From Methylobacter luteus IMV-B-3098 (GTDB lineage Bacteria > Pseudomonadota > Gammaproteobacteria > Methylococcales > Methylomonadaceae): a DNA stretch of 64,000 nucleotides. Positions 10,136 through 19,143 of the stretch are shown one piece after another (position 1 is the stretch's first letter; each line of letters begins with the position of its first letter). The notes beneath the pieces were generated by a model, which did not search any database, was not told the origin of the DNA, and was given only the letters and a program-made list of their open reading frames with translations. The DNA lies in the NCBI RefSeq assembly GCF_000427625.1, contig NZ_KE386569.1, forward strand, positions 3,294,674-3,358,673. The letters run 5' to 3'. The position numbers and the translations under genes are program-made.

Positions 10136-10374
10136 TAAGTCAAAGTGATTCGATGTCAAAGAGGCCCTATATCAAGGGGTAATTTTGCAGGTTATCATTT
10201 CAGTGTATTTACTGGCAAGCCGGCGTCTTGATGGCCCAATAGCCAAGTTTTTTGCCCGCTTAATCGAAATGTCCTGATTTGCTTATTCGAGCATGGATCT
10301 GATATCTCAACTGGACAGACCCATAAATTGCACGCTATTCTCCAAGCTATCAATATTCTGAATTGGAAACAGTT

Positions 10375-11022
10375 ATGCAACTCACTCCTCAATTATTGCC
10401 GAACCTGATTCAGGCCATAGCAGATGTGATCGAAAATAATGCCGAAGAGGTAACCGCTCTGGACCAAGCTATTGGCGACGGCGATCATGTAATTAACTTG
10501 CAACGTGGCATCCAAGCCCTCATAGCGCAAAGCGTCGAATTAAGCCAGTCGGATTGGGCTACTGCCTGGCAGAAAATCGGCATGACATTGATGACGACTG
10601 TAGGTGGTGCGTCGGGCTCGCTATATGGCACCCTGTTTATGGCCATGAGCAAAGCCTCTCGCGAGCGGTCTTTGACTCTATCTACTTTTGCAGAGGTTTA
10701 TGCTCAGGGAGTGGAAGCCGTCAAGCAAAGAGGGAAGGCTGACGTCGGGGAAAAAACCATGCTCGATGTTTTGATCCCTGTGGCGGATAGCTTGCGGCAA
10801 TCATCGGTGGAGGCTGTTGAGCTGCCTGTGGCGCTGACCAAACTGACAGATGTTGCGCTCGCTGGCATGGAGTCCACACGCGACATGCTGGCGACTAAAG
10901 GGCGCGCCTCTTTTCTGGAAGAGCGGAGCAGAGGACATGTTGATGCAGGCGCTAAAACTGCTCAGTTAATGATTTGCGCGATAGTCGCTGTGCTGGTCGA
11001 GCGCTTAACAACCCCAGCGTAA
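10375..11022 (+). CDS. dhaL: dihydroxyacetone kinase subunit DhaL
   Basis: This is the nucleotide-binding subunit of a two-part dihydroxyacetone kinase. The 215-residue protein has Asp30, Asp35 and Asp37 in LDQAIGDGDH, at the same positions as the metal-binding aspartates of E. coli DhaL, followed by a glycine-rich TVGGASGSLYG loop near 71-81. The ATG at 10375 gives the family N-terminus. The gene runs toward dhaK and its last 18 bp overlap the end of dhaK, so the two subunits are convergent rather than co-transcribed. No DhaM phosphotransfer subunit is visible in the window. Confidence 0.85.
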   Translation: MQLTPQLLPNLIQAIADVIENNAEEVTALDQAIGDGDHVINLQRGIQALIAQSVELSQSDWATAWQKIGMTLMTTVGGASGSLYGTLFMAMSKASRERSLTLSTFAEVYAQGVEAVKQRGKADVGEKTMLDVLIPVADSLRQSSVEAVELPVALTKLTDVALAGMESTRDMLATKGRASFLEERSRGHVDAGAKTAQLMICAIVAVLVERLTTPA

Positions 11023-11994
11023 AGCCGCGGTATGGACTGGCGCATCCCATAGATGAATCAGTTCGTCATCAAGCAGTGTCAGTGTAACCGAGCAACCGGC
11101 CATATCGAGTGACGTGGTATAGTTGCCGACCAAGGAGCGGCAAATGTTGATGCCGTGTTTTTCAAAGAAACTGGCGGCCAAGTCATAAACCAGATGCAAT
11201 TCCATCAATGGTGTAGCTCCGAACCCATTGATATGTAATAACGCGGGCTGGCCTTTTTGCGGCTTCAGCTCTTCATCAATGGCTTGAGCCAGATGTTCGA
11301 CAATTTCGGTGGCGCTGGCTAATGCCATTGTTTCACGCCCACGCTCGCCATGTATGCCGACGCCCATTTCCATTTCGTTGTCGCCGATAGTAAATGTAGG
11401 CTTGCCGAGAGCCGGCACTGTGCAGCTGCTCAGTGCCACGCCCATGGATGCCGTAGCTAGATTGACGCGCTCGCCGAGCGCTTTACAGGTAGCCAAGTCT
11501 GCACTGTTTTCCGCCGCCGCGCCGACGATTTTTTCCACGATTAATGTGCCTGCTACGCCGCGCCGTCCGGTGCTGTGAGTTCTGGGCAATGATACATCAT
11601 CGTTTATCAAGACGGTTTCGTGAGGACAATCCAGTATTTCCGAAGCAATCTCGAAATTCATGACATCCCCGGCATAATTTTTGACGATGAACAAGACACC
11701 GCCGCCATTTTCGACAGTCTGTGCGGCGGCCAGCATTTGATCAGGCGTAGGGGAGGTGAAAATCTGACCGGGACAGGCAGCATCCAGCATGCCCCGTCCG
11801 ACAAAACCGGTATGCAGAGGCTCATGGCCTGAGCCGCCGCCGGAAATCAGCGCGACCTTGCCAGGGGCAGTAGCGGTTATGCGTCTGACAAAATGCGGCT
11901 GGGCATTGAACTGGATGATATCAGCATGAGCCCTAGCGAAACCGCGTAGACTTTCGTCGAGCAGCGTGTCAGTACTGTTAATGAATTTTTTCAT
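11005..11994 (-). CDS. dhaK: dihydroxyacetone kinase subunit DhaK
   Basis: This is the substrate-binding subunit that forms a hemiaminal with dihydroxyacetone. The ATG at 11994 (MKKFINSTDTLLDESLRGF) gives a 329-residue protein, matching family length. An in-frame start at 12054 would add 20 unrelated residues. Key features are VALISGGGSGHEPLHTGFVG near 43-62, IVKNYAGDVMNFEIA, and the catalytic His in GVGIHGERG. The C-terminus LWDAPVHTAALRWGC is typical. It is tail-to-tail with dhaL and overlaps it by 18 bp. Dihydroxyacetone or another C3-C4 ketose is the expected substrate. Confidence 0.88.
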   Translation of the reverse strand: MKKFINSTDTLLDESLRGFARAHADIIQFNAQPHFVRRITATAPGKVALISGGGSGHEPLHTGFVGRGMLDAACPGQIFTSPTPDQMLAAAQTVENGGGVLFIVKNYAGDVMNFEIASEILDCPHETVLINDDVSLPRTHSTGRRGVAGTLIVEKIVGAAAENSADLATCKALGERVNLATASMGVALSSCTVPALGKPTFTIGDNEMEMGVGIHGERGRETMALASATEIVEHLAQAIDEELKPQKGQPALLHINGFGATPLMELHLVYDLAASFFEKHGINICRSLVGNYTTSLDMAGCSVTLTLLDDELIHLWDAPVHTAALRWGC

Positions 11995-12052
11995 TGCGGC
12001 GACTCCGGTGTTTTTTGTTTTACTTATGGTAGCGTGTGCCGATAATACGATC

Positions 12053-12075
12053 AATCAGCTTCCGAGAGGCTGATT
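12053..12075. terminator. hairpin between dhaK start and HAD gene end
   Basis: Arms AATCAGC (12053-12059) and GCTGATT (12069-12075) form a 7-bp stem, with TTTATT following on the plus strand. It lies 29 bp after the stop of the HAD phosphatase gene, which reads on the minus strand. In that direction the T-run is short. Confidence 0.45.
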
Positions 12076-13460: not shown

Positions 13461-14108
13461 ATGGCAAAACCATTAATTCAAATGGCATTAGATTCATTAG
13501 ATTTCAACGCAACAGTTGCACTTGCAGAGCAAGTAGCGCCACATGTTGACATTTTTGAAATCGGAACACCATGCATTAAGCATAACGGCATCAATCTGGT
13601 TAAAGACTTGAGAAACAGATTTCCAGATAAATTGCTTTTAGTTGACCTGAAAACAATGGACGCTGGCGAGTACGAAGCAACACCTTTCTATGCAGCAGGT
13701 GCTGATATTTGTACAGTTCTGGGCGTATCTGGTCTTGCAACTTGTGCTGGTGTTATCAAAGCGGCTAATGCTCACGGTGCGGAAGCCCAAATCGACTTGA
13801 TCAACGTTGAAGATAAAGTAGCATGTGCACGCGCTACTGCCGAAATGGGTGCTCACATCATGGGTATCCACACTGGTCTTGACGCACAAGCAGCAGGCCA
13901 TACTCCATTCAGCGACTTGAACGATATCGCTAGATTAGGCTTAAACGTCAGAATTTCAGTAGCCGGCGGTATTAAACAATCTACTGTTCAAGATGTTGTA
14001 AAATCTGGCGCAAACATTATTGTTGTCGGCGCAGCAATCTACGGTGCTCCTTCCCCTGCTGAAGCAGCTCGTGAAATTCGTCAATTGGTTCATGCAGTTA
14101 GGGTATAA
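13461..14108 (+). CDS. hxlA: 3-hexulose-6-phosphate synthase
   Basis: This key RuMP enzyme condenses formaldehyde with ribulose 5-phosphate to hexulose 6-phosphate. It is a 215-residue TIM-barrel protein of the orotidine decarboxylase/HPS family, with the family motif LLVDLKTMDAGEYEA near residues 59-73 containing the metal and catalytic residues, GIHTGLDAQAAG near 134-145 and SVAGGIKQ near 172-179. It is followed after 2 bp by the isomerase gene, so the two are co-translated. Codon use is smoother and less GC-rich than in neighbouring genes, which suits high expression. Confidence 0.97.
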   Translation: MAKPLIQMALDSLDFNATVALAEQVAPHVDIFEIGTPCIKHNGINLVKDLRNRFPDKLLLVDLKTMDAGEYEATPFYAAGADICTVLGVSGLATCAGVIKAANAHGAEAQIDLINVEDKVACARATAEMGAHIMGIHTGLDAQAAGHTPFSDLNDIARLGLNVRISVAGGIKQSTVQDVVKSGANIIVVGAAIYGAPSPAEAAREIRQLVHAVRV

Positions 14109-14110
14109 GT

Positions 14111-14644
14111 ATGCATCAGCAACTTATCATAGATAAAATTTCCGGTATTCTGGCAGCTACAGACGACTCATACGATGAAAAGCTGACTGCAATGCTTGAT
14201 AAAGCATCCCGCATCTTTGTTTCAGGCGCAGGCCGGTCAGGTTTGATCGGAAGATTTTTCGCCATGAGACTGATGCACAGCGGTTATGATGTGAGTGTCG
14301 TTGGTGAGATTGTTACACCGAGCATTAAAAAAGGTGACCTGCTGATCATTATCTCAGGCTCCGGAGAAACTGAACAATTGGTGGCCTTCACCAAACGCGC
14401 TAAAGAAATAGGCGCTCAAATTGTTTTAATCTCGGCGAAAAGCGACTCAACTATTGGCGATATGGCAGATGCGGTATTCCAAATCGGCAACCCTGAACAA
14501 TATGGTAAAGTTGTCGGTATGCCAATGGGAACGGTATTTGAATTGTCCACGTTATTCTTTTTGGAAGCTTTAATTTCTCATGTTATACATGAAAAAGGAA
14601 TTCCTGAGGAAGAAATGAGGTCAAGGCACGCTAACTTAGAGTAG
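14111..14644 (+). CDS. hxlB: 6-phospho-3-hexuloisomerase
   Basis: It converts hexulose 6-phosphate to fructose 6-phosphate, the second RuMP step. The 177-residue SIS-domain protein shows FVSGAGRSGLIGRFFAMRL near residues 36-54, IISGSGETEQLVAF near 80-93 and a C-terminal glutamate/histidine tail (EEEMRSRHANLE) typical of the family. It begins 2 bp after the hps stop and ends just before a strong terminator. Both enzymes act in the cytoplasm. Confidence 0.97.
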   Translation: MHQQLIIDKISGILAATDDSYDEKLTAMLDKASRIFVSGAGRSGLIGRFFAMRLMHSGYDVSVVGEIVTPSIKKGDLLIIISGSGETEQLVAFTKRAKEIGAQIVLISAKSDSTIGDMADAVFQIGNPEQYGKVVGMPMGTVFELSTLFFLEALISHVIHEKGIPEEEMRSRHANLE

Positions 14645-14887: not shown

Positions 14888-16882
14888 ATGACTTCGCGCC
14901 GAGAATTAGCGAACGCCATACGCGCTTTGAGCATGGATGCCGTACAGAAAGCAAACTCTGGTCACCCAGGTGCCCCTATGGGCATGGCGGACATTGCTGA
15001 AGTTTTGTGGAATGACTTCATGCGTCATAACCCGACCAATCCAAAATGGTCAAACCGCGACCGCTTCGTTCTTTCTAACGGTCATGGTTCAATGCTGATT
15101 TATTCCCTGCTGCATCTGACCGGGTATGATCTATCTATCGAAGATCTGAAGAACTTCCGTCAACTTCATTCTAAAACAGCAGGCCATCCTGAATACGGCT
15201 ACGCACCCGGCGTTGAAACCACTACCGGTCCATTAGGTCAAGGTATTACCAATGCTGTGGGCATGGCAATCGCTGAAAAAGCATTGGCTGCTGAATTTAA
15301 TAGACCCGACCATAAAGTTGTTGACCATCACACTTACGTGTTTATGGGAGACGGTTGTTTAATGGAAGGTATCTCACACGAGGCTTGTTCCTTGGCAGGT
15401 ACCTTAGGCTTGGGTAATCTGATTGCATTCTGGGATGACAATGGCATTTCCATTGACGGTCATGTAGAAGGCTGGTTTACCGATAATACGCCAATGCGTT
15501 TTGAAGCTTATGGCTGGCATGTAATTCCTGATGTTGATGGCCATGATTCTCAAGCTATTTTGAAAGCGATCGAGATGGCTAAAGCGATGACCGATAAGCC
15601 AACGTTAATCTGCTGCAAAACAACAATTGGCTTTGGATCGCCTAATAAAAAAGGTAGTCATGCATGTCACGGAGCTCCTCTGGGCCAAGATGAAATCAAC
15701 CTGACCAAGGCCGCTTTGGGTTGGGATCATGATGCGTTTGAGGTTCCGGCTAATGTTTATGCTGGTTGGGATGCGAAAGCTAAAGGTGCTAAAACTGAGC
15801 AGGAATGGAATGAAAAATTTGCCGCTTATAAGGCGGCCTATCCTGAATTGGCAGCTGAATATGAGCGTCGTATGTCTGGTGAACTGCCAAGTAACTGGAC
15901 TGCGGAAGCAGATAAATTTGTTAATGCTGTCAATGATGAAGCTAAAACTACGGCTACACGTCTTTCTTCATTGGCTTCGATTGAAGGTTATGCAAAAGTA
16001 CTGCCTGAGATTTTCGGTGGTTCAGCTGATTTAGGTTGCTCTAACATGACCGAATGGTCAGGTTACAGACCGATGCGTGCAGATAAACCGCATGCCAACT
16101 ACATCAACTATGGTGTGCGTGAATTTGGTATGTCGGCTATCATGAACGGCTTGGCATTGCATGGCGGCGTTATCCCATTCGGTGCGACTTTCCTGATGTT
16201 TTCAGAATATGCACGTAATGCACTGCGCATGGCAGCATTAATGAAGATCCGTTCGATCTTTGTTTATACGCATGACTCTATCGGATTGGGCGAAGACGGT
16301 CCAACGCATCAACCGATCGAGCAAACCGCTACATTGCGTATGATTCCAAATATGCAGGTATGGCGTCCATGCGATGCGGTGGAAACCGCCGTATCATGGA
16401 GATCTGCTATTGAGCGTAAAGACGGGCCTTCAATTTTGGTATTCTCACGTCAAAACCTTCCACATGTGCCTCGTACTCAAGAACAAATTAGCGCTATTTC
16501 TCGTGGTGGCTATGTTCTGAAAGACAGCGATGGCCAGCCCGAAGCCATCATCATCGCTACCGGTTCTGAAGTTGAACTGGCGCTGAAAGCCGCTGAGGAG
16601 TTGACAGCTAAGGGCCGGAAAATTCGTGTGGTCTCTATGCCTTCTACTAACATTTTCGACGCTCAAGATGCTGCATATCGCGAGTCGGTATTGCCATCTG
16701 CTGTAAGCAAACGTGTAGTAGTCGAAGCTGGAGTGAGCAATGGCTGGTGGAAATACGTTGGCACCAACGGCAAGATCGTAGGTCTTGATCGTTTTGGTGA
16801 ATCGGCACCAGCGGGAGTACTCTTCAAAGAGTTCGGCTTCACCGTTGAAAACGTAGTCAAAAACGTAGAAGCAGTACTTTAA
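14888..16882 (+). CDS. tkt: transketolase
   Basis: It transfers two-carbon units between sugar phosphates with thiamine diphosphate and regenerates pentose phosphates for formaldehyde fixation. The 664-residue length is standard. Motifs are the substrate-loop [19 protein letters not shown] near 24-42, [14 protein letters not shown] near 115-128, the ThDP motif beginning GDGCLMEG near 155, and the C-terminal-domain signature [12 protein letters not shown] near 464-475. AAGGAG lies 8 bp before the ATG. It is separated from hxlB by a terminator and a 200-bp leader and from the next gene by a structured region. Confidence 0.97.
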
Positions 16883-16916
16883 TTTAAAAGTAAATATACA
16901 CTATAAATTTGGCGAG

Positions 16917-16969
16917 GGGCTCCCTTTATATCCGGAGGAAACTAATTGTCCTCCAGTCTTAGGGAGCCC
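16917..16969 (+). other. two-stem RNA structure between tkt and the repeat protein gene
   Basis: An outer 9-bp stem (GGGCTCCCT 16917-16925 with AGGGAGCCC 16961-16969) encloses an inner 6-bp stem (GGAGGA 16934-16939 with TCCTCC 16949-16954). There is no T-run, so it may be an RNA-stability or leader element rather than a simple terminator. It also presents a GGAGGA sequence in a base-paired arm. Confidence 0.5.
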
Positions 16970-17001
16970 AATTCGCTTATTACGACTCATAGGTGAACAA
17001 C

Positions 17002-17694
17002 GTGAAAATGAATAATTTGACGACAGGTGTGCTTGCGGCACTGCTGCTAGCCAGTCCCATAGCGGGAGCAGAAACTGAATATCCTGCATCCGACTTCAAA
17101 CCGAAGGTTCTTTATAAGGATGCTGAATACAAACATACTCAGTCTTCTGCATCATCCGCTTCAGCCGAAAAATCCAAACCAGCTGCCGCAGAAACTACTA
17201 AACCAGATGCAAAATATCCTGCTGCAACTTTCAAGCCGGAAGTTGTTTATAAAGATGCTGAATATAAGCATACTCAGTCCGCTCCTAGTGCTCCAGCATC
17301 AAAATCAGCTTCTACTGAAGAATCAGGATCAACTGGCGCGGTAGCTACCACAGAAAAGAAAGAAGAACAATCAATGACTAACTATTTGGTCGGTTTAGGT
17401 GCTTTTGCACTGGCTGGACTGTTTTTCTTTGGTAGAAAACCTAAAGACCAAGTTGAAAAAGCTGCTCCTGTATATTCCAGAGACGCTAGTGGACTTACCG
17501 GTGTTGCCAGATATCTGAACGAGCAAGAAGCTGCTTCAGCAACTGGAGTTACCAAATATCTGAATAAACAGACTGCGTTTGAAGAACCAGCTGCAACTGC
17601 TACAGCTTCAGTAACTGGTGTTGCTAAGTATTTGGATAAAAAGTCAGAAGCAGATGTAACCGGAGTAGAAAAATATCTGCGCAAGCAAGGTTAA
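17002..17694 (+). CDS. unknown exported, membrane-anchored protein with two repeat types
   Basis: The predicted product has 230 residues. GTG at 17002 has AGGTGA 5 bp upstream and gives a lysine before the hydrophobic signal segment; ATG at 17008 and GTG at 16993 are alternatives. Numbered from 17002, a signal peptide covers residues 1-23. Two near-identical repeats of about 22 residues (FKPxVxYKDAEYKHTQS) lie at 27-48 and 72-93 with Ala/Ser/Pro linkers. A membrane helix spans about 128-144, followed by GRKPKD. Four copies of TGVxKYLxKQ lie at 166-175, 181-190, 205-214 and 220-229. The first repeats should be periplasmic and the TGV repeats cytoplasmic. No function is known to me. Its place between tkt and tal suggests a link to one-carbon metabolism or membranes. 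Confidence 0.8.
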   Translation: MKMNNLTTGVLAALLLASPIAGAETEYPASDFKPKVLYKDAEYKHTQSSASSASAEKSKPAAAETTKPDAKYPAATFKPEVVYKDAEYKHTQSAPSAPASKSASTEESGSTGAVATTEKKEEQSMTNYLVGLGAFALAGLFFFGRKPKDQVEKAAPVYSRDASGLTGVARYLNEQEAASATGVTKYLNKQTAFEEPAATATASVTGVAKYLDKKSEADVTGVEKYLRKQG

Positions 17695-18156: not shown

Positions 18157-19143
18157 ATGGCAAAGAATTTACTTGAACAACTGAGGGAAATGACTGTGGT
18201 TGTAGCCGATACCGGCGATATCCAGGCCATCGAAACTTTTAAACCACGCGATGCTACAACCAATCCCTCGTTGATTACTGCCGCCGCTCAAATGCCGCAA
18301 TATCAAGGTATCGTTGATGATACGCTCAAAGGTGCTAGAGCAACATTGGGTAGCAGCGCATCGGCAGCAGAGGTAGCTAATCTCGCTTTCGAACGTCTGG
18401 CCGTTTCTTTTGGACATAAAATACTCGAAGTTATTCCAGGTCGTGTTTCCACTGAAGTAGACGCTCGTCTCTCTTATGATACCGAAGCCAGCATTGCTGT
18501 CGGCCGCGAATTAATTAAGATGTACGAAGAACAGGGCGTTTCCCGCGAGCGAGTACTTATCAAGATTGCTTCGACATGGGAAGGTATTCAGGCTGCGGCG
18601 GTTCTGGAAAAAGAAGGTATCCACTGTAACCTGACCTTATTGTTCGGTATTCATCAAGCGATTGCTTGCGCCGAGAATGGCATTACGCTGATTTCTCCGT
18701 TTGTCGGACGTATTCTTGACTGGTACAAAAAAGATACCGGCCGCGATTCTTACGCGCCTGCTGAAGATCCAGGCGTACTTTCAGTTACAGACGTGTATAA
18801 CTATTACAAAAAATTCGGTTATAAAACTGAAGTCATGGGAGCCAGTTTCCGTAACATTGGCGAAATTACCGAGTTGGCAGGTTGCGACTTGTTAACTATT
18901 GCTCCGTCTTTATTAGGTGAATTGCAAGCTACCGAAGGTGAGTTGGTGCGTAAACTGGACCCGCAAAAAGCAGCCAGTGCATCTATCGAAAAAATCACTA
19001 TGGACAAAGCTACTTTTGATCGCATGCATGCGGAAAACCGTATGGCTTCGGAAAAACTGTCAGAAGGTATCGAAGGTTTTACCAAAGCATTGGAAACGCT
19101 TGAGAAACTGCTTGAAGACAGATTGGCGGTACTTGAGGGCTAA
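18157..19143 (+). CDS. tal: transaldolase
   Basis: It transfers dihydroxyacetone units between sugar phosphates in the cytoplasm and completes the rearrangement arm of the RuMP cycle. The 328-residue protein is of the classical TalB type. It has the substrate-region DATTNPSLI near residues 31-39, [10 protein letters not shown] near 97-106 and the Schiff-base lysine in [13 protein letters not shown] near 127-139. The AAAGGT site precedes the ATG. It is a single-gene unit with a terminator hairpin at 19202-19232. Confidence 0.96.

Follow-up and report, generated by a model that had tools for sequence, protein, structure and literature searches.

How formaldehyde passes from its periplasmic producer to the cytoplasmic enzymes of the RuMP cycle is a basic question of methane biology. 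It is raised by a gene of Methylobacter luteus IMV-B-3098, here called X, which encodes a membrane-anchored repeat protein and lies between tkt and tal in the window (the whole stretch of 64,000 nt that was analysed): what does such a protein do among RuMP genes? The genes of the locus and the parts of X are as follows.

13461..14108, + strand: hps, 3-hexulose-6-phosphate synthase (HPS); TIGR03128 over cut-off at the matching G000:C1:3308149-3308763
14111..14644, + strand: hpi, 6-phospho-3-hexuloisomerase; adjoins hps in relatives, named from sequence and position
14888..16882, + strand: tkt, transketolase; upstream of X in relatives, named from sequence
17002..17694, + strand: gene X, membrane-anchored TGVxKYL repeat protein, 230 aa, GTG start
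17002..17073, + strand: predicted signal peptide of X, residues 1-24, ending SPIAGA before E; from hydropathy, with a model helix at 4-16 and the cleavage site placed by eye
17080..17145, + strand: outer repeat 1 of X, YPASDFKPKVLYKDAEYKHTQS, Y27-S48; from sequence and alignment
17215..17280, + strand: outer repeat 2 of X, YPAATFKPEVVYKDAEYKHTQS, Y72-S93; from sequence and alignment
17374..17430, + strand: predicted membrane helix of X, residues 125-143, followed by GRKPK; from hydropathy and model
17497..17526, + strand: motif 1, TGVARYLNEQ, starting at residue 166; AlphaFold2 helix 167-178
17542..17571, + strand: motif 2, TGVTKYLNKQ, starting at residue 181; AlphaFold2 helix 182-194
17614..17643, + strand: motif 3, TGVAKYLDKK, starting at residue 205; AlphaFold2 helix 206-216
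17659..17688, + strand: motif 4, TGVEKYLRKQ, starting at residue 220, at the C-terminus; AlphaFold2 helix 221-229
18157..19143, + strand: tal, transaldolase, candidate partner; downstream of X in relatives, named from sequence

The GTG at 17002 is the likelier start of X because AGGTG lies just 5′ of it at 16991–16995 and the resulting VKxNN N-terminus is conserved; an in-frame GTG at 16993 is a possible alternative. Hydropathy peaks at residues ~3–27 (signal peptide) and ~123–147 (membrane helix), and the topology is read from hydropathy and charge: the positively charged GRKPK after the helix places the tail in the cytoplasm. Two copies of YPAxxFxPxVxYxDxxY occupy the exported part. Signal peptide, two outer repeats, single membrane helix and four motifs, as described in the earlier note, are thus all confirmed from sequence and hydropathy, and the even spacing that it gave the motifs is approximate only (15, 24 and 15 residues). 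Its suggestion of a periplasmic sensor finds no support: no sensor or ligand-binding domain in X is matched in Pfam or NCBIfam.

Shuffling the 80-residue tail of X 200,000 times yields one TGVx[KR]YL motif in 60 cases and two in none, and a six-frame search of open stretches (30 aa or longer) in the remainder of the 64 kb finds the strict motif a single time. In an alignment of 28 X sequences (A1), V and Y of motifs 1 and 2 are invariant, as are Y27, P28, A29, P34, D69, P73 and A74; motifs 3 and 4 are less complete, with V207, V222 and Y225 at 90 % at least. The K/R position is invariant or nearly so and the linkers are variable. Motif 4 forms the C-terminus in 27 of the 28 and is missing from one (L041). 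Across 233 copies from 26 proteins the consensus is [TS]GV[A/S/E][K/R]Y[L/I/M]xxQ, with a spacing of 13–22 residues in 155 of 207 cases. The AlphaFold2 model of X (mean pLDDT 59, pTM 0.17) has few short helices in the exported part; four short helices coincide with the four motifs, and the chain is otherwise of low confidence. Docking motifs that are helical and carried on a flexible chain should look like this, though so weak a model proves little.

Counting the genome of the window, 50 of 61 genomes have a match to X (E≤0.01 over any part). Loci were read for the best 80 of 319 X relatives, which are named records, mostly Methylococcales, from a ranking by similarity that favours close relatives. 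In all of these best 80 of 319 the gene is housed in a RuMP cluster, with tkt and tal on either side as far as the contigs extend, so that the neighbourhood remarked upon earlier is kept throughout; tkt is upstream in 75 (the other five begin at a contig edge) and tal is downstream of X, or of X plus a second protein, in 78 (the other two are cut by contig ends). Four motifs are found in 78 and three in 2 of the same set. The second protein, Y, is motif-rich (4–17 copies); it follows X in 66 of the best 80 of 319, lies upstream only in 2 and is absent from the available stretch in 12.

Several loci vary this arrangement. In Methylotuvimicrobium buryatense 5G, hps-hpi-tkt-Y precedes hps-hpi-tkt-X-tal, with another Y before, and one genome (G013) has three HPS genes 5.2 kb apart. 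Two Methylococcus-like genomes (G039, G054) have tkt...X-hps-hpi clusters twice with tal between, hps-hpi separating X from tal; these doubled clusters match the RuMP duplication of M. capsulatus Bath, as described in the available part of PMC517821. In G060, X and Y adjoin hps-hpi with no tal or tkt within 15 kb, and three additional motif ORFs are present. In G046 the protein between tkt and tal has a signal peptide, a membrane helix and two motifs, without outer repeats (by eye). As a separate observation, X is split over two frames in RuMP cluster copies of G039 and G054 (L295, L297), by sequencing error or a true frameshift, and hps and hpi of G039 are also matched in several pieces.

No curated family in Pfam or NCBIfam matches X over cut-off. 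In a full-text literature search, with most subscription journals outside its reach, the motif heptapeptides were absent and no description of a native RuMP scaffold or motif was found, which agrees with the earlier remark that no described function of the motif was known. Neither of the two sequence-based outcomes against which the earlier note had staked its reading, a characterised family and an unconserved neighbourhood, came true. The closest family candidate is PF14960 (ATP_synth_reg), which matches 5 of the 28 X relatives at E≤1 (best E 0.0018). We take it to be the DAPIT/USMG5 family, with its TGIKKYF stretch. In X (18.2 bits) and in one soluble relative (X′, below; 20.6 bits) it aligns 15–20 residues across a single motif copy and stays under its cut-off of 25 bits, and the likeness is judged convergent. 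An LPXTG anchor (TIGR01167) was rejected for X at 12.9 bits against 15.9. Of 17 Y proteins scanned, three pass the whole-protein cut-off of PF12220 (U1snRNP70_N; 27.8, 25.0 and 26.5 against 23 bits) and one that of PF19809 (DUF6292; 29.0 against 27.1); no single stretch passes in any, and the scores are judged compositional. Among solved structures searched by sequence, X weakly matches one designed repeat protein (E 0.058) and the motif profile none. A plasmid search gave no X relative.

A version without an anchor is found in family f10 of the same class, which is probably Methylophagaceae. This protein, X′, has 97–187 aa and 4–7 motifs, has neither signal peptide nor membrane helix (by eye), and lies between hps and tal in the three f10 loci read. 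The A3 profile matches 54 of 57 f10 genomes (E≤0.001), 46 of them with short ORFs (47 in all) and 8 in long ORFs only (1,288–2,065 aa). All but one of the 47 short-ORF matches are within 1.5 kb of HPS, and 44 are flanked on both sides within 2.5 kb. HPS itself (E≤1e-20) is present in 50 of the 57; a short motif ORF accompanies it in 46 of these 50 and occurs in 0 of the 7 HPS-negative genomes. The four HPS-positive genomes without a short ORF are G449, G450 and G469 (55–73 % complete) and G478 (94 %, HPS over cut-off). The earlier note suggested that the motifs might, for instance, recruit soluble enzymes to the intracytoplasmic membrane (ICM). An anchor with repeated docking motifs beside RuMP enzymes is still the best reading of the data, but the ICM is not essential to the motif because the f10 motif protein has neither signal peptide nor membrane helix.

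An assignment of f10 to Methylophilaceae was dropped, as its gene arrangement differs from those of G820 and of published Methylophilaceae. G820 (f206) has an hps among likely histidine genes and another next to tal and hpi, an arrangement like that given for Methylophilaceae in the available part of PMC4109929. The available part of a paper on Methylophaga thiooxydans (PMC6548844) lists RuMP enzymes and leaves transaldolase unmentioned; since f10 has transaldolase, this list is no help in naming the family.

Co-occurrence with HPS extends beyond f10. In the class sample of 369 genomes a two-repeat profile (E≤1e-3) matches six, and the same six are those in which HPS passes its cut-off; the chance of this overlap is 3e-13 if genomes are independent, which they are not, as the six come from two groups. 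The order sample comprises 27 genomes, 24 from other families and 3 from the window's family. Here the motif is present in 12 of 17 HPS-positive genomes (11 if G052 is contaminated) and in 0 of 10 HPS-negative ones. G052:C1 and G038:C285, from different families, are 100 % identical over 3 kb (L258/L259, L270/L271), so that one of the two assemblies is probably contaminated. The only motif carriers seen without HPS are long kinase-like ORFs in five f10 genomes, 75–89 % complete. Overall, the association comes from about two clades, in which common descent or the transfer of a cluster as a unit may account for it. Matches in G069 and G347 (A1 profile, E 0.004–0.008) and in G278 (A4, E 0.0087) were set aside as chance matches, and an HPS match in G310, below cut-off, was left out.

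HPS is not always accompanied by the motif. In the phylum sample it is over cut-off in 4 of 398 genomes, namely that of the window plus G628, G820 and G830, which belong to the same class, and the strict motif is absent from the 15–19.5 kb around the HPS genes of the latter three. The HPS proteins of G628 and G830 (f188) are 38–39 % identical to that of the window; the Methylophilaceae-like G820 has a tal beside hps that is 56 % identical to the window tal. The transaldolases of f10 are 77–84 % identical to it. Within the order sample, the HPS-positive, motif-negative genomes are G057 (f4) and four from f6 (G041, G047, G055, G058). The f6 four, Methylothermaceae-like, encode an exported, membrane-anchored X-like protein (L281–L284) with one or two YPA repeats and an acidic tail with a basic end and no TGV motif; its gene is far from hps-hpi or on another contig. 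By eye, this gene adjoins a mutS-like gene in G041, G058 and G047.

Two of these genomes bear on the partner of the motif. G041 corresponds to Methylomarinovum tepidoasis IN45 and G055 to M. caldicuralii IT-9, both with HPS and an X-like protein and no motif; in the available part of PMC10950024 RuMP genes are reported for both, and transaldolase is given as absent. That the motif is gone where transaldolase is gone, with HPS and the membrane part kept, is suggestive only, being seen in two species of one genus, and the comparison points on thin evidence to transaldolase over HPS. A transaldolase-only reading is countered by G060, where X and Y occur without tal in 15 kb. Comparison of enzyme copies cannot name the partner because tal offers one motif-negative copy and tkt none; for HPS, 24 motif-positive and 8 motif-negative copies are separated by a single position (residue 108) of 113 conserved, and hpi gave none. 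Transaldolase is put forward, tentatively, as the likeliest direct partner of the motif, with HPS as the second candidate. If the partner is transaldolase, the sugar-rearrangement branch, and not only HPS, would be central to the assembly.

Architecture, operon linkage and co-occurrence together lead to a reading to which we give about an even chance: X would be the membrane-anchored member of a multivalent docking-motif scaffold that gathers RuMP enzymes. A set of proteins sharing one helical docking motif, [TS][GSR]Vx[KR]Y[LIM]xxQ, on flexible linkers would bind RuMP-cycle enzymes. In Methylococcales X would keep the enzyme cluster at the membrane, at the point of formaldehyde entry into the cytoplasm, and the 4–17 motifs of Y would cross-link this cluster; in f10 the soluble X′ would gather the enzymes without an anchor. 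The motif would accordingly bind protein, its partner would be a RuMP enzyme, and flux or formaldehyde capture would be affected. As judged from its sequence, the motif protein of the methanotroph RuMP cluster fits such an enzyme-gathering tether. No RuMP enzyme carrying the motif itself was noticed, the enzymes not having been scanned individually. With its natural variants, i.e. membrane-bound, soluble, and tail-less where transaldolase is missing, a docking motif in a RuMP operon makes enzyme organisation testable.

The nearest known layout is that of the algal pyrenoid, a likeness of layout from which no membership is claimed. In the Chlamydomonas pyrenoid one Rubisco-binding motif is carried by the soluble linker EPYC1 and by the membrane proteins RBMP1 and RBMP2, an arrangement proposed to tie the enzyme matrix to membranes (available part of PMC10473226). 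Likewise, a short conserved motif is repeated along a part of X that is predicted to be flexible, and the motif is found on a membrane protein (X) and a linker protein (Y) of the same locus; some Y N-termini are hydrophobic, which leaves the solubility of Y unsettled. X and Y differ from EPYC1 and the RBMPs in motif, enzyme, pathway and kingdom, no sequence relation is claimed, and Rubisco binding is shown for the pyrenoid proteins, whereas enzyme binding by X and Y is a prediction. PYCO1 of the diatom pyrenoid is, like X and Y, a tandem-repeat protein, described as a linker with sticker motifs that binds Rubisco (available part of PMC10288592), and a sequence relation to X is not claimed.

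A further possibility, rather improbable as it stands, is that X and Y form a native formaldehyde-fixing assembly, the methanotroph counterpart of a pyrenoid. Y would cross-link transaldolase, HPS and their partners by way of its TGVxKYL motifs, X would tie them to the membrane, and the outer YPAxxFxPxV repeats would bind a protein in the periplasm, for instance methanol dehydrogenase; formaldehyde would then be both produced and fixed at a single site spanning the membrane. Work from the 1970s reportedly found particulate HPS in methanotrophs, for which an X/Y assembly might account. Engineered Mdh-Hps-Phi assemblies bring a formaldehyde producer and HPS together in order to aid formaldehyde use; they are man-made fusions or complexes, and a native scaffold is unmentioned in the available part of PMC8879981. 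The X/Y motif system could offer a ready-made scaffold for engineered methanol use.

The motif is carried by other proteins as well. Z proteins have 4–5 motifs and a small C-terminal domain with conserved Cys/His (C..C..C..H). The window's genome encodes one; Z proteins were noted at L013 5713–6633 (− strand), L228, L257, L289, L292 and L293, and one of the three additional motif ORFs of G060 is a Z. The C-terminal domain (~211–270 in the copy of the window's genome) is modelled with a mean pLDDT of 89–95 per ten residues, and a PDB fold search with the model gave no match at E≤0.001. No Pfam family matches Z over cut-off, nor does any NCBIfam family match the one Z searched there. Two Z proteins weakly match PF25195 (DPC2, diatom pyrenoid component 2) across the motif repeats; as the scores are 14.4 and 16.7 bits and the cut-off is 70, membership was rejected. 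There are no RuMP genes in the 9–12 kb read around Z. Furthermore, four ChpA-like hybrid kinases of f10 (L199–L202, in G219, G476, G421 and G457; 1,874–2,049 aa) have 2–5 clear motifs of TGVERYI type around their Hpt domains; the two that were scanned contain Hpt, HATPase, CheW and receiver domains. Such carriers suggest a general role in docking for the motif in these bacteria. The repeats that the earlier note saw X offering for docking are indeed present, but not on X alone: as they are common to X, Y, Z, X′ and the ChpA-like kinases, X forms part of a network of motif proteins.

Z and the kinases are the main reason for retaining a signalling or positioning role, in which a common adaptor or localisation factor binds TGVxKYL and places or links RuMP proteins and ChpA-like kinases. 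The motif on the f10 kinases argues against a metabolic scaffold, which predicts no such carriers. A profile search of three genomes of the window's genus (G000, G001, G003; E≤0.05), however, matched only X and Z and no such kinase, and both X and X′ go together with RuMP genes; we consider this role unlikely, if less so than the other alternatives.

Membrane shaping is an alternative that we hold to be quite improbable. The V..Y-L motif with its K/R is amphipathic, and such helices might bind membranes or each other and help to stack the ICM without recruiting enzymes; the membrane helix of X and the conservation of its outer repeats go with this, and most loci of the best 80 of 319 X relatives come from methanotroph genera, which as a group form ICM. 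The anchor-free f10 version weakens this account, as does Methylomarinovum, whose X-like protein is without the motif despite a type I ICM (available part of PMC10950024). That X is a passenger, kept in the operon for a non-RuMP reason such as periplasmic folding of methanol-oxidation proteins and with a tail that is a neutral expansion, is very unlikely: the outer-repeat part does exist without the tail, but from genus to genus it is the motif residues that are conserved and the linkers that vary, X′ has the motif and no outer part, and the G046 protein has two motifs without outer repeats.

Outer repeats also occur on their own. L014 5612–5875 (− strand) and similar short ORFs in relatives encode exported proteins that consist nearly entirely of YPAxxFxPxV repeats and lack both a membrane helix and a TGV tail. 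Neither Pfam nor NCBIfam gives a match over cut-off for this short outer-repeat paralogue, for the tail-less protein or for X′.

Two features of the locus lie outside the coding sequence of X. Between tkt and X, at 16911–16977 of the window, a strong RNA hairpin is predicted (z −3.5); when the tkt-X gap was folded in 17 named loci, 7 gave z≤−3.0, with differing hairpin sequences, and the other 10 lay above that value. A few kb upstream of hps, close to each other on opposite strands, are two genes that by eye resemble the L and K subunits of dihydroxyacetone kinase (10363–11022, + strand, and 11005–12054, − strand).
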